IMG/VR virus record: IMGVR_UViG_3300028571_000122
Coordinates: 1-23,587 of that record
Strand: one strand, 5' to 3'
Origin: a virus
DNA length: 23,587 bases
Shown piece by piece: positions 5,037-23,587 of the stretch. The position numbers were made by a program, and so were the translations under genes. The notes beneath the pieces were generated by a model. That model had not been told where the DNA came from, ran no database searches, and saw only the letters and a list, made by a program, of their open reading frames with translations. Every line of letters begins with the position of its first letter. The first letter of the stretch is position 1.

Positions 5037-6506
5037 ATGGTCCAACCAATCAACTACTCACTCAACGTCCAGAGTCCTTTTGAGGCTGCTTTGGGCGGAT
5101 TCAAGATCGGCGCATCGATTGCCGACATTGGTGCTCAGCGTCAACTGCAGGAGCAGGAGCTGGTGCGCAAGCAGAACTTGCAAACGCAGGTCAATGCGCT
5201 GATTCAAAATAAAAACCCGACTGCGCGAGACTTCACCAACGTGGCCATGCTACTGCCTGAAAAAGAAGCAGCCAGCATGCGCGCCAACTTTGAGACCTTG
5301 TCCAAAGATCAGCAGGAAAACCGGTTGCGCTTTGGTGGTCAAGTCATCGCGGCATTCAGCGCCAACCAGCCTCAGATCGGCATCCAGCTTTTGAAGGATG
5401 AAGCATTGGCGAATCGCAACTCAGGCCGAGAGAGCGAAGCCAAAGCCTACGAGGTTGCAGCGCAACTTGCAGAAAATGACCCACTCTCAGCATTAAAAAT
5501 TGCTGGCATCAACATGGCCGTACTGCCTGGAGGTGACAAAACGCTGGAGTCTGCAATCAAGGCAATGAAGGCACCAAGCGAAATTCGCACAGCCGAGGCT
5601 GGCGCAACCAAAGAAGAACTGGTCACAGCCAACACTCCGACCCGCCTGGCGCTGGAGAACACGAACACGGCTGCCAACATCCGCAACCTGGACAGCCAGA
5701 TCGTGGAGCGCTCCAAGAGGCTGGTGCTCGATCAAGACAAGCTGAAATTAGACCGCGACAAGTTGCAGTCTGACGTTGAACTGAAACTCTTTGAGCTGAA
5801 CCAAAAGGGCACCACGCTCGATGCCAACGCAGCCAAGATCGTCAACGATGCAGCAATAGCTGCCGTCGGCTCTGAGCAGGCCGCAGGCCGCATGCTCGAT
5901 CTGGCCAGCCGCATGGAGTCGGCTGGCGGCGGTAGAGGCGCAGGGACATCGTTCTCTGAGAAGGTGAAAAACCTCACCGGCAACCAGGACGGATTCACGC
6001 AACTGCGCAACGAGTACACCAGGCTGCGCAATACGCAGGCCATCAAGTCGTTGCCACCAGGCGTGGCCACAGACAAGGACATCGAACTGGCGCTCAAGGG
6101 CTTGCCACCAGAGACGGCTGATGCAGCCGTGCTCGCTTCATTCCTGCGCGGCATGGCCAAGATGGCGCAGTACGAGGCGGTGGCCGAAAGCGCCAAGTCT
6201 GAGTGGGTGAACTCAAATGGCACCCTTGGCCGTGCTAACAAAGACATCGACATTGGCGGCATCCAAGTGCCTAAAGGCACCACCTACGTGGACTTTGCAC
6301 GCCAGTTCATGGATCAGCGTGCGCAAGACTTGGCCGCAGCTCAAGCTGGCCGTGCGGTGTCTGGCCGTGGTTACATGCGCTTTGCAAATCCCCAGACAGG
6401 CGCTGTGCCTGGTCAGAATTTATCGCCACTGCCCACGACGCCAGTGAACCCACCGGAGTTTGGAGGCGGTGTCACTGTGCCCACTCCGTTTACAGGCGCA
6501 CCATAA
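5037..6506 (+). CDS. Putative DNA-ejection protein (P22 gp20-like position)
   Basis: This is a 489-aa protein with long helices. A Gln/Glu-rich N-terminal segment near residue 40 (QRQLQEQELVRKQNLQTQV) and a coiled-coil-like region near residues 215-260 (RLVLDQDKLKLDRDKLQSD) stand out, and the tail is Pro/Gly-rich (ends PTPFTGAP). No enzymatic motif is seen. Length, helicity and its place between the gp7-like and transglycosylase-containing proteins fit the second ejection protein of P22-type virions (gp20). ATG 5037 is chosen because AAGGAG stands seven bases before it. The frame is open 45 bases further upstream, but that overlaps the previous gene and has no ribosome site. Confidence 0.6.
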   Translation: MVQPINYSLNVQSPFEAALGGFKIGASIADIGAQRQLQEQELVRKQNLQTQVNALIQNKNPTARDFTNVAMLLPEKEAASMRANFETLSKDQQENRLRFGGQVIAAFSANQPQIGIQLLKDEALANRNSGRESEAKAYEVAAQLAENDPLSALKIAGINMAVLPGGDKTLESAIKAMKAPSEIRTAEAGATKEELVTANTPTRLALENTNTAANIRNLDSQIVERSKRLVLDQDKLKLDRDKLQSDVELKLFELNQKGTTLDANAAKIVNDAAIAAVGSEQAAGRMLDLASRMESAGGGRGAGTSFSEKVKNLTGNQDGFTQLRNEYTRLRNTQAIKSLPPGVATDKDIELALKGLPPETADAAVLASFLRGMAKMAQYEAVAESAKSEWVNSNGTLGRANKDIDIGGIQVPKGTTYVDFARQFMDQRAQDLAAAQAGRAVSGRGYMRFANPQTGAVPGQNLSPLPTTPVNPPEFGGGVTVPTPFTGAP

Positions 6507-20798: not shown

Positions 20799-21185
20799 TT
20801 ACTCCTTGATGGTGATTTTGAAAGATGGGCGGCCAGGCTTGGCCGTGATAGCACCGGCCAGCGGCTTGGTGATTGACTCGTCTGCAGCCTTCCACAGCGC
20901 CATGCTGATCTCAGGCTTCCAGCGAAACAGGCGGCTCAAGTGCTCGGTCAGGCCGTGCTCAGCGGCCAGCTCCTGCAGCTTGTCGCTGTCCACCTTGCGG
21001 TCAATGCGGCCAGCAATCTTGACCACAAAGCCTTGCGGCTCGGCGGTCTCGGTGGTCTCAAACGACTCGGGCAGCTTGAGCATCTTGACGATCTGGTCCT
21101 CGATCTTGCGGCGCTCGGTGACTGCCTTCTCCTCGTCGGTCTTGTGGCGCAGCCAGTCTGCGCTCAGGGTTTTAAGGTCGCTCAT
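20799..21185 (-). CDS. Phage recombination-cassette protein, unknown
   Basis: This 128-aa protein has a helical N-terminus (LSADWLRHKTDEEKAVTERR), a central GFVVKIAGRIDRKVD strand pair and a tail with RPSFKITIKE. No catalytic motif is recognised. Similar proteins are found between Sak4-like ATPase and DUF669 genes in phages, which suggests a role with them, but it has no established name that I know. Its start overlaps the ATPase stop (ATGA) with a GGAG upstream. Confidence 0.7.
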   Translation of the reverse strand: MSDLKTLSADWLRHKTDEEKAVTERRKIEDQIVKMLKLPESFETTETAEPQGFVVKIAGRIDRKVDSDKLQELAAEHGLTEHLSRLFRWKPEISMALWKAADESITKPLAGAITAKPGRPSFKITIKE

Positions 21186-21859
21186 GCTCGTGCTCCAATC
21201 TTGGCGATGATGGCGCTGAGGTCCGGCGTCTCCCAGGCATCCAGCTTGCCGCTACGGTCCTTGGCCAACCACAAGCCATCGCTGTCGCACATCAGGGCAC
21301 GCTGCGTGGCACCCTCACCATCCTTCTCCACACGCAGGGCCAGCACTTCGTCAAAGAAGTAGGGCAGCGCCTGGCCGGTCTTGTTGCCCGGCATGCTGGG
21401 CGCGTACAGCACCCGGCCCATCTCGTCCTGCGTCTTCTCCAGTTTGGCGCTCATGTAAACATGGCGGCCAGGCAGATCGCGGAAGGCACGGATGATGTCG
21501 GCCATCTGCTCCTGCATGGCCCCATAGGCTGCGCGTGGGTCTTTGTTGACCTTCTTCTCGTGGTTGAGGCAGACCTCGGCGATCTCGCTGATCGAGTCCA
21601 GGGCCACCGACTGGTAAGCCTTGGCATCGTCCGAGCTGGTCAGCCATTCGTAGGCCTCCCGCAGATCGTCCATCGAGGCGATCTCGATGAAGGGCAGGTC
21701 TGCGTCCTGAATGGACAGCAGGCCACCTTCAGCGGACAGCACGATGGGGCTGGGCAGGCTTTTGATCAGCGAGGTTTTACCCGCACCGGCCTGGCCATAG
21801 ACCAGGACTTTGACACCGTTGGCAGCCAGGCTGCCGGTGGACTTCACGTTGATTGCCAT
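21182..21859 (-). CDS. Sak4-like RecA-fold ATPase (AAA_24), putative single-strand annealing protein
   Basis: This 225-aa protein carries Walker A GQAGAGKTS (22-30), a hydrophobic Walker B strand SVALDS with D88, and the AYGAMQEQMADIIRAFRDLP helix region (~110-130) typical of AAA_24/Sak4 proteins. These are short RecA-like ATPases that anneal or exchange single strands in phage recombination, usually with an SSB-like partner, here the DUF669 protein. It is the first gene of the leftward operon, 60 bases from the divergent promoters, with a strong AAGGAG before its ATG. Confidence 0.85.
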   Translation of the reverse strand: MAINVKSTGSLAANGVKVLVYGQAGAGKTSLIKSLPSPIVLSAEGGLLSIQDADLPFIEIASMDDLREAYEWLTSSDDAKAYQSVALDSISEIAEVCLNHEKKVNKDPRAAYGAMQEQMADIIRAFRDLPGRHVYMSAKLEKTQDEMGRVLYAPSMPGNKTGQALPYFFDEVLALRVEKDGEGATQRALMCDSDGLWLAKDRSGKLDAWETPDLSAIIAKIGARA

Positions 21860-21914
21860 GAGTGGCTCTCCTTTTTGGGTTGCTGCGCTTTCGGACCATC
21901 CAGTTGCGCAGTGC

Positions 21915-21944
21915 TTGCATCATAAACCGAAAATAGGGTATAGT
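21915..21944 (+). promoter_or_regulatory. Rightward sigma70-like promoter for HTH and primase genes
   Basis: The promoter has TTGCAT (21915-21920, -35), an 18-base spacer and TATAGT (21939-21944, -10). Transcription would start near 21951, about 33 bases before the HTH start. Both boxes lie within or beside the operator-like repeats. Confidence 0.6.
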
Positions 21945-21948
21945 GCAA
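21919..21948 (-). promoter_or_regulatory. Leftward sigma70-like promoter for the recombination operon
   Basis: On the minus strand TTGCAC (21948-21943, -35), an 18-base spacer and TATGAT (21924-21919, -10) form a good promoter. Its start would fall near 21912, about 53 bases before the ATPase gene. Its boxes overlap those of the rightward promoter, so the two cannot be occupied by RNA polymerase together. Confidence 0.6.
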
Positions 21949-21983
21949 GCACTCCCGCAAATATATTTTCAGAGGTGCAACTT

Positions 21984-22169
21984 ATGATGACTGTTGAGCA
22001 AATCAAAAAACGGCTAGAAGATGCCAATCTCAAGAGGGTGGCCGAGAACGCAGGCGTGCACCCGGCCACGGTTTACCGCTTCATGCAGGAGGAGTCCAAG
22101 CCCTTGTATGAGACGGTCAAGGCGCTGTCGGACTACCTGACAAGGCAGGAGGCCACAATCAATGGCTGA
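21984..22169 (+). CDS. Short HTH (Cro/C1-like) DNA-binding protein
   Basis: This 61-aa protein is mainly a single helix-turn-helix domain: helix 1 VEQIKKRLEDANL, HTH LKRVAENAGVHPATVYRFM (~17-35), and a C-terminal helix LYETVKALSDYLTRQ. This fits small XRE/Cro-type regulators, which usually bind as dimers. AGAGGT lies eight bases before ATG 21984; a second ATG follows at once. The open frame extends upstream across the promoters, but that part is not expected to be transcribed. It overlaps the primase gene by eight bases and very likely regulates the divergent promoters. Confidence 0.8.
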   Translation: MMTVEQIKKRLEDANLKRVAENAGVHPATVYRFMQEESKPLYETVKALSDYLTRQEATING

Positions 22170-23587
22170 CCTCTCCAACGTCCTCGGCGGCCCCTGGTCG
22201 CCACCACCAGAAAAAAGAGTTGCACCACCTGAGACACAGCTTCGAGACGCCATGATCGGTGCAGGCCTGGAGCCACCCGATCACATCGAGATGGACGGCA
22301 AGATTCACCGGTTCAAGTCAGGCACCAAGGGCACACCAGGCATCGACAAACCAGGCTGGTATTTGGTGTTCGGTGATGGCATCCCAGCCGGTCGGTTTGG
22401 ATGTTGGCGTGCAGGCATCGAAGTCACATGGCGTGCAGATGTAGGACGCAAGCTCACTGACTTCGAGGAGATGGCCCACGCAAGGCGCATCAATGAATCC
22501 AAGGTCTTGCGCGAAGCTGCCCAAGAGCGCCAACATCAAGTGGCCAGCGAGACGGTCGAGAAAATTTGGCTTAGTGGCGTCGCAGCCCACCCCGACCACC
22601 CTTACCTGAAGCGCAAAGGCATCCAGACCCACGGCGTGCGCACCACAGGCGATGGGCGGCTGATGGTCCCCCTCTACGATCAGGACGGCACCCTGAGCAC
22701 TTTGCAATACATCGATGAGGATGGTGGCAAGCTGTACCACCCCGGCGGCAAGTCGGGTGGCAAATTTTGGATGGTCGGCACAATGGACGAACCCGGCACC
22801 CTTTACGTGGCCGAGGGATTCGCCACCGCAGCCACCATCTATGAAACCACCAGCCGACCCTGCGTTGTTGCTTACAGCGCCAGCAGCCTGGTGCCGGTCA
22901 CATCAAGCCTGCGCGAGATGTACGGCGCAACTCAGGACATCGTTATCGTGGCAGACCATGACAAACACGGCGTGGGCCAGCGCTACGCAGACCAAGCCAG
23001 CGCAAAGTTTGGTGCTAGGGTGATCATCCCACCCATCGAGGGCATGGACGCCAACGACTACGTGCAAGCAGGACACAATCTCTCAGCCCTGCTGGTGCAG
23101 CAAACCGGCACAACTGTGATGGACAAGCTGCAGGTGGTGTTCGGTGACCAGCTCGGCAACGACTACGAGGCACCAGACGAGCTGGTCGAAGGCCTCATGA
23201 CCATCGGCAGCTCGGTGGTGGTGTACGGCGACAGCAACTCAGGCAAAACATTCTGGGCACTTTCAGTGGCCACGGCCATCGCCACCGGCTCGGACTGCTA
23301 CGGACGCAAGACCGACCCCGGCCTGGTGGTGTATCTGGCCAGCGAAGCCCCGGCCAGCATCCGGTCGCGCATGCAGGCCATCAAGAAGTTCCACGGCTGC
23401 AGCCTGGAGAACTTGGCGATGGTGCCGGTCCCGATGAACTTCTACTCAGGTGCCCAAGACGCACACGACGTGATCGAGATGGTCAGGGCCATCGAGAAGA
23501 TCAAGGGCAAGCCGGTACGCCTGATCATCGGCGACACGCTGGCCAGAATGAGCGCAGGAGCCAACGAAAACAGCGGCGAGGACATGG
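22162..23587 (+). CDS. Bifunctional primase-helicase, 3' end outside window
   Basis: The frame stays open for 475 codons to the window edge, so it is partial. Residues ~140-200 carry HPDHPYLKRKGI and a following RLMVPLYDQDGTLSTLQYI segment, as in phage/plasmid primases. A TOPRIM domain follows: E218 in LYVAEGFATAATIYE, D265-x-D267 in IVIVADHDKHG, and GMDANDYV. Then comes a RepA/AAA_25-type ATPase with Walker A GDSNSGKT (356-363) and Walker B-like LIIGDT near 454-459. No CHC2 zinc finger is seen in the first 200 residues. AGGAGG precedes ATG 22162. It would prime and unwind the phage origin. Confidence 0.85.
   Translation, partial: MADLSNVLGGPWSPPPEKRVAPPETQLRDAMIGAGLEPPDHIEMDGKIHRFKSGTKGTPGIDKPGWYLVFGDGIPAGRFGCWRAGIEVTWRADVGRKLTDFEEMAHARRINESKVLREAAQERQHQVASETVEKIWLSGVAAHPDHPYLKRKGIQTHGVRTTGDGRLMVPLYDQDGTLSTLQYIDEDGGKLYHPGGKSGGKFWMVGTMDEPGTLYVAEGFATAATIYETTSRPCVVAYSASSLVPVTSSLREMYGATQDIVIVADHDKHGVGQRYADQASAKFGARVIIPPIEGMDANDYVQAGHNLSALLVQQTGTTVMDKLQVVFGDQLGNDYEAPDELVEGLMTIGSSVVVYGDSNSGKTFWALSVATAIATGSDCYGRKTDPGLVVYLASEAPASIRSRMQAIKKFHGCSLENLAMVPVPMNFYSGAQDAHDVIEMVRAIEKIKGKPVRLIIGDTLARMSAGANENSGEDM

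Follow-up and report, generated by a model that had tools for sequence, protein, structure and literature searches.

Gene Arrangement of the Locus

The window, by which we mean the whole 23,587-nt stretch of viral DNA that was analyzed, contains a 124-bp intergenic region from which two operons diverge. To the left, on the minus strand, lies the gene of an AAA_24/Sak4-like ssDNA-annealing ATPase (21182–21859; Pfam AAA_24, E 2e-29; PHROG 124, Sak4-like, E 4e-58). This is the first gene of the leftward operon, which also encodes a DUF7173 protein, a DUF669 (SSB-like) protein, a Cas4-type exonuclease and a helicase. Rightward, on the plus strand, the first gene encodes a 61-aa Cro/C1-type HTH protein (21984–22169), and the second a primase-helicase with Toprim and AAA_25 domains (22162–23587, continuing past the window end; Pfam Toprim_3, AAA_25), whose counterpart in phage 1N2-2 is annotated as a primase-helicase. 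The two gene sets are read as early operons, with replication encoded rightward and recombination/repair leftward. The same divergent arrangement is present in Idiomarinaceae phage 1N2-2, Pseudoalteromonas phage H103 and Alcaligenes phage CASP1 (where the products are unnamed). We found no description of the window's early-promoter region in the literature searched. The last 8 bases of the HTH gene are also the first of the primase-helicase gene (22162–22169), an overlap that suggests translational coupling.

The regulator gene sits directly downstream in the rightward of the two transcripts. Its 61-aa product matches the HTH_3 profile above the curated cut-off (24.5 bits vs 23) as well as PHROG 18104, a transcriptional regulator, and has no match to the P22 Cro profile (PF14549). 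The AlphaFold model consists of four helices (pLDDT 92). Foldseek searches with this model returned P22 c2 and the Salmonella phage repressor 5d4z, with TM scores of about 0.6–0.7 but weak E-values (0.09 and above). Phage and XRE-type repressors are among the closest solved structures. A search of viral contigs for relatives of the CASP1 HTH protein found none.

Two Opposed Putative Promoters on the Same DNA

Two promoters facing away from each other can be read in the intergenic region. The rightward one has its -35 box, TTGCAT, at 21915–21920 and its -10 box, TATAGT, at 21939–21944; the leftward one, read on the reverse complement, has TTGCAC at 21943–21948 and TATGAT at 21919–21924. The first-pass annotation had described this opposed pair, and its letters, coordinates and equal 18-nt spacers were confirmed to the base, as was an exact 10-base inverted repeat with arms at 21910–21919 and 21944–21953. 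Each -35 box overlaps the opposite -10 box by two bases, and both promoters are contained in 34 bp (21915–21948). The -10 boxes are separate, 14 bp apart, and the start sites predicted 7 nt downstream of each, at 21951 (rightward) and 21912 (leftward), are ∼39 bp apart.

Taken alone, this one sequence provides weak evidence, because the -35 boxes are weak (3/6 matches to the consensus each, 8/12 per promoter), a standard promoter scan of the window lists neither promoter, and the number of inverted repeats is close to that in shuffled sequence: exact 10-bp inverted repeats within 40 bp occur four times in the whole window and commonly 0–5 times in shuffles, an unremarkable count. For the 124-bp region itself such a repeat is uncommon: when it was shuffled, just 16 of 5000 versions contained an exact 10-bp inverted repeat.

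Comparison with relatives turns this weak claim into a strong one. We enlarged the comparison set by querying with the left-hand ATPase, which gave 96 distinct related intergenic regions in 24 sequence clusters at 70% identity. The best rightward and the best leftward sigma-70 promoters, chosen independently, overlap in the window's geometry in 83 of the 96 regions and 19 of the 24 clusters, compared with 260 of 2880 shuffled regions (9%); related loci are not independent, so the locus counts overstate the evidence and the cluster counts are fairer. The retention of this face-to-face geometry supports the earlier proposal that polymerase would bind the two promoters in a mutually exclusive manner.

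The boxes themselves vary in a manner expected of promoters. Among 55 distinct close relatives the rightward -35 box is TTGCAT in 47 (it is lost in L051), and the rightward -10 box is TATAGT, TACAGT, TAAGAT or TATATT only, with T1, A2 and T6 invariant. The leftward -10 box is TATGAT, TAAGAT or TACAAT in 51 of the 55, all with T1, A2 and T6 kept; three of the remaining four have TACAGT displaced by one base, and the fourth has TAAAGT. Variation of both -10 boxes is thus almost wholly confined to TAnnnT, and the most constant letters are the ones on which sigma-70 depends most. The leftward -35 box is TTGCAC, TTGCAT, TTGAAC or TTGCAA in the window's own class, defined by an HTH protein with an HPAT recognition helix, and is a perfect TTGACA in many relatives with another HTH protein or none. 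In the distant relative L274 the standard scan itself reports an overlapping pair, TTGACA-18-TACATT and TTGACA-18-CACAAT (5130–5159 and 5164–5135, 10/12 matches each). From these comparisons we consider it very likely that the shared, overlapping promoter pair is real.

In one subgroup (L077, at about 2930–2970, L049, L078 and L079) the promoters approach perfect two-fold symmetry, TTGCAACTGTACC...GGTACAGTGCAA, with TACAGT in both -10 boxes. In the rightward 5′ UTR (21954–21980), the letters CCGCAAA and AGGTGCAA are strongly conserved in the HPAT class, beyond the needs of a ribosome-binding site.

A Hairpin at the Predicted 5′ End of the Leftward Transcript

Adjoining the left arm of the inverted repeat is a feature that had been overlooked, a hairpin on the minus strand (21883–21911) that would form the 5′ terminus of the leftward transcript. 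It has a lower stem of 6 bp, a 3x3 internal loop, an upper stem of 3 bp, which the window's sequence extends to 4 bp, and a short loop. Folding of the leftward leader as a single sequence was not significant (z -0.9), and it is covariation that shows the structure: among 34 distinct versions, compensatory changes occur at 7 of the 9 consensus pairs, and 99% of cells are paired, vs 71% in shuffled data. The lower stem, for example, reads CTGCGC/GCGCAG, CACCAC/GTGGTG, CGCTTC/GAAGCG or CTGCAA/TTGCAG. When the structure is slid by 1–3 columns, pairing falls to 31–41%, and RNAalifold, unaided, returns the same structure. The automated hairpin search was confined to the leader, and junk picks were removed by hand.

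In 88 of 98 distinct loci, the hairpin begins 7 or 8 nt past the end of the leftward -10 box, which places it at the first or second base of the predicted transcript. This position at +1, together with the freely changing stem sequence, points to a 5′ RNA structure rather than a DNA operator, and we hold with good confidence that the hairpin is a real structure of this kind.

In most records, a covariance model of the hairpin (E 4e-6 for the window) detects a single strong copy in the genome. The model misses 1N2-2 and L088, yet a similarly shaped hairpin is visible in both; in H103 and CASP1 the standard hairpin is absent by eye and by model. A search of positions 21500–22400 with the Rfam covariance models, at E up to 1, gave no match. 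L274 has three hairpins of similar shape (1289–1317, 5168–5196 and 5455–5483), each 7–8 nt past the -10 box of a TTGACA promoter, and one of these is located at a divergent face-to-face promoter.

What might such a hairpin do? A hairpin at the 5′ end stabilizes bla mRNA and impedes RppH (reviewed in PMC3997798). By analogy, the simplest role is protection of the 5′ end of the leftward mRNA, to which we assign about an even chance. The internal loop is more conserved than simple end protection would need: the A at column 8 is nearly invariant and that at column 22 invariant, next to stems that covary freely. Such conserved unpaired bases, as well as the three copies before three promoters in one genome, would fit a site in the RNA that polymerase or a phage protein reads, for antitermination or other regulation, rather than a 5′-end protector; but the hairpin is only about 29 nt long, and a site of this type would be expected on both early operons, whereas the covariance model finds no copy on the window's rightward transcript. 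We therefore regard this alternative as rather unlikely. Equally tentative is its broader form, that the hairpin with its conserved internal loop might be a so far undescribed regulatory site in RNA, such as a leader for antitermination or protein binding, which marks the early transcripts of a large phage group and acts together with a promoter/repressor cassette exchanged by recombination at the shared promoter. End protection stays the role that we assume below.

A Nearly Invariant Palindrome in the Shared Promoter

The right arm of the inverted repeat belongs to a perfect AGTGC-N2-GCACT palindrome, AGTGCAAGCACT (21942–21953), which had been noted in the first-pass annotation and is two bases longer than the arm. 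It overlaps the rightward -10 box and start as well as the leftward -35 box, and is a candidate operator of the 61-aa HTH protein. In its core (21944–21951), 7 of 8 columns are invariant; mean heterozygosity is 0.009, compared with 0.28 at the fourfold sites of the HTH gene, and none of 20000 resamples was as low. The palindrome is also class-specific: AGTGCAAGCAC/ATGCAAGCAC accompany proteins with the HPAT recognition helix only, and different right arms are found in loci with other HTH classes, with a P22_Cro protein or with no HTH gene. In L194 and L258, whose HTH proteins are 82% and 79% identical, TGCAAGCACT is kept despite changes in the surrounding sequence. GTGCAAGCAC recurs at the shared promoter in the records of the class, and no other site recurs likewise. 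We rejected a regulon of further operators, since weaker matches are scattered much like a control pattern.

The left copy of the palindrome, AGTGCTTGCATC (21910–21921), is imperfect, with two mismatches to AGTGCNNGCACT, and appears to be weaker and dispensable. Conservation of the repeat arms in relatives had been set beforehand as a check, and its outcome differed between the two arms: the right arm is nearly invariant in the HPAT class, but the left arm is variable, reading AGTGGTTGCATC in 18 of 55 distinct relatives and being lost in six loci that keep the gene pair (L029, L034, L040, L042, L051 and L194). On conservation, the original idea that the HTH protein operates on the promoter-embedded repeat survives for the right arm. 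A symmetric operator pair is not a necessity and is only partly supported, and the left arm is rejected as an essential operator because several relatives have lost it.

The conservation of the right arm has to be weighed against its role in the promoter. In loci with a non-HPAT protein or no HTH gene, TGTCAACA is the usual right arm, and the leftward -35 box TTGACA lies within it. We did not accept TGTCAACA in these classes as evidence for an operator, since it equals the -35 box and persists where the HTH gene is missing; part of the right-arm conservation may accordingly reflect the promoter rather than an operator. Carried to its limit, this argument would make the palindrome a promoter element only, the arms being -35 boxes with their flanks, with polymerase competition setting the balance between left and right and the HTH protein acting elsewhere. 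Loci with no HTH gene do keep the layout unchanged, with right arm GTGTCAACAAC, and loci of the P22_Cro and HYNTIREV types share TGTCAACA despite unrelated recognition helices. Nevertheless, in the window's class the leftward -35 box departs from TTGACA to TTGCAC, yet the palindrome hardly varies, even at bases that belong to neither hexamer. Promoter function alone leaves this unexplained, and the operator reading is favored for this class; we judge a pure promoter element to be unlikely.

Because the right site lies near the HTH gene, its correlation with HTH class could itself be partly due to linkage, and we infer binding of the HTH protein from the pattern of conservation. Conservation would also suit a host regulator or another phage protein as the binder; such a binder is improbable, however, given that different classes of neighboring HTH gene come with different sites and that the site recurs only at the HTH gene's own promoter. 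On balance, the HTH protein probably binds the right site.

An Exchangeable Right Half

In several pairs of relatives, the alignment shows near identity from the beginning of the ATPase gene across the hairpin as far as the left arm, and then an abrupt divergence into different right halves. The left operon retains its hairpin, and the right half is replaced by one with another HTH class, with a P22_Cro protein (PF14549, E 2e-17; the assignment was checked on one of ten such loci), or with no HTH gene and a primase or other gene directly next. Judged from these alignments, the shared promoter appears to be the point at which recombination joins the two operons.

In three pairs (L131/L129, L156/L151 and L123/L122) the change from identity to divergence is sharp and falls at the left promoter boundary, which is likely to be a recombination junction between operons there. 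The P22_Cro-like protein occupies the HTH position, upstream of the AAA_24 gene, in L125, L127, L130, L139, L141, L145, L149, L158, L172 and L180, where the promoter layout is kept and the hairpin mostly kept. In L164, L168, L176, L179, L184, L185 and L223, which have no HTH gene, primase or another ORF (PTCISFSGGRTSAYML...) directly follows, and the face-to-face promoters and the hairpin remain.

Search for Lysogeny Genes

We searched 16 records, consisting of the window and 15 related viral records, for lysogeny genes. No tyrosine integrase (PF00589), serine (resolvase-type) recombinase (PF00239) or S24 repressor was found in these 16 records, of which the window and some others may be incomplete. 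In 15 of the 16, the 61-aa protein or its ortholog gave the sole HTH_3 match; CASP1 has a second, weak one. Among 84,980 bacterial and archaeal species genomes we found no close relatives. In phages related to 1N2-2 (CRP-822-type), the integrase is reported to be absent in almost all members (PMC12629253). The phage therefore appears to lack lysogeny genes, and a lysis-lysogeny switch is unlikely.

These results bear on the earlier suggestion that the promoter pair is a minimal switch. A small Cro/C1-type HTH protein between divergent early operons would be suited to a bistable lysis-lysogeny or maintenance switch of the lambda type, cut down to one repressor and two operators. But in place of the two repressors and three operators of lambdoid phages there are at most two sites at the shared promoter, and the lysogeny genes missing from the 16 records, the lack of a second HTH_3 match in 15 records, the absence of close bacterial or archaeal relatives and the rarity of integrases in CRP-822-type phages all stand against it. 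A lambda-like decision switch is consequently unsupported and highly improbable, and we reject it. That the symmetry arose by chance and serves no function, as the weak -35 boxes, the negative scan and the ordinary repeat count might allow, is ruled out almost entirely by all comparative results, including conservation across 24 sequence clusters.

A Model for the Shared Early Promoter

We propose a shared early promoter with Cro-like self-shutoff by the HTH protein and a 5′ hairpin on the leftward mRNA, and consider this model as a whole to be probable. It builds on what comparison shows, namely promoter geometry, hairpin structure, and the near-invariance and class-specificity of the right site, and adds to these predicted start sites, HTH binding and dimerization, shut-off and RNA stabilization. 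Since the two sigma-70 promoters share the same 34 bp and face away from each other, one RNA polymerase would bind at a time. A leftward start would transcribe the recombination/repair operon; a rightward start would transcribe the genes of the 61-aa Cro-like HTH protein and the primase-helicase. As the HTH protein accumulates, a dimer would settle on AGTGCAAGCACT, and because this site covers the rightward -10 box and start as well as the leftward -35 box, a single bound dimer could turn off both early operons, including the HTH protein's own gene. In some phages the left copy may provide a second site of lower strength. The leftward mRNA would open, at +1 or one base later, with the stem-loop (21883–21911), which most likely shields its 5′ end from decay by pyrophosphohydrolase and RNase E.

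Comparison with Known Systems

By analogy, the region would work most like the Tn10 tet region and, in its self-repression, like Cro. In the Tn10 tet control region the divergent tetA and tetR promoters overlap and hold two similar palindromes, the tet operators, and the regulator is encoded by one of the transcripts. Tn10 TetR represses its own gene and the divergent gene (Bertrand 1983 and TetR text, PMC11686294). Overlapping divergent promoters are likewise found in the window and 83 of 96 relatives, with the regulator encoded in one transcript; that this regulator binds the promoter palindromes and represses both promoters, as in Tn10 tet, is suggested by conservation and class-specificity. 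Unlike TetR, the 61-aa Cro-like HTH protein of the phage is too small to hold an inducer domain. The phage region differs further in that only one of its two sites is well conserved, both transcripts are early operons, and the leftward one has a 5′ hairpin.

The resemblance to lambda OR/Cro lies in a small HTH_3 protein that is made from an early promoter and probably represses it. In contrast to lambda, no cI-like S24 repressor, three-operator array or integrase was found here, and the two promoters occupy one 34-bp stretch. In bidirectional promoters with a symmetric -10 box, the two directions share that box, and their starts are separated by 18, 10 or 23 bp (PMC12825309). The window's promoters resemble these in their pseudo-symmetry, divergent transcription and presumed mutual exclusion of polymerases, but each has its own -10 box, and the predicted starts are ∼39 bp apart. 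The 5′ stabilizing stem-loops of ompA and papA (references in PMC3997798) are, like the phage hairpin, located at the extreme 5′ end of the mRNA, here 7–8 nt after the -10 box in 88 of 98 distinct loci, with the start being a predicted one; the phage hairpin differs from them in its conserved 3x3 internal loop and its place on a phage early operon, and its stabilizing effect is putative.

What is new is that face-to-face early promoters occur together with a repressor half that can be exchanged and with a 5′ hairpin. This provides a compact, testable model of how early genes might be turned on and off, with no lysogeny module, in a widespread and mostly uncultured group of phages that comprises hundreds of IMG/VR contigs. 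It also suggests that recombination can occur at promoters of this kind, with the left operon keeping its leader and the right half being swapped together with its repressor. Finally, it adds an RNA structure with strong covariation that is absent from Rfam.

Among named phages, the early regions of 1N2-2 and H103 are arranged like that of the window, with an AAA_24-type ATPase to the left and an HTH gene followed by primase to the right, but their operator sequence differs and regulatory features are unannotated there. In 1N2-2 the likeness extends to face-to-face promoters, with arms TGTTGAC/GTCAACA, and to a hairpin of the same shape.
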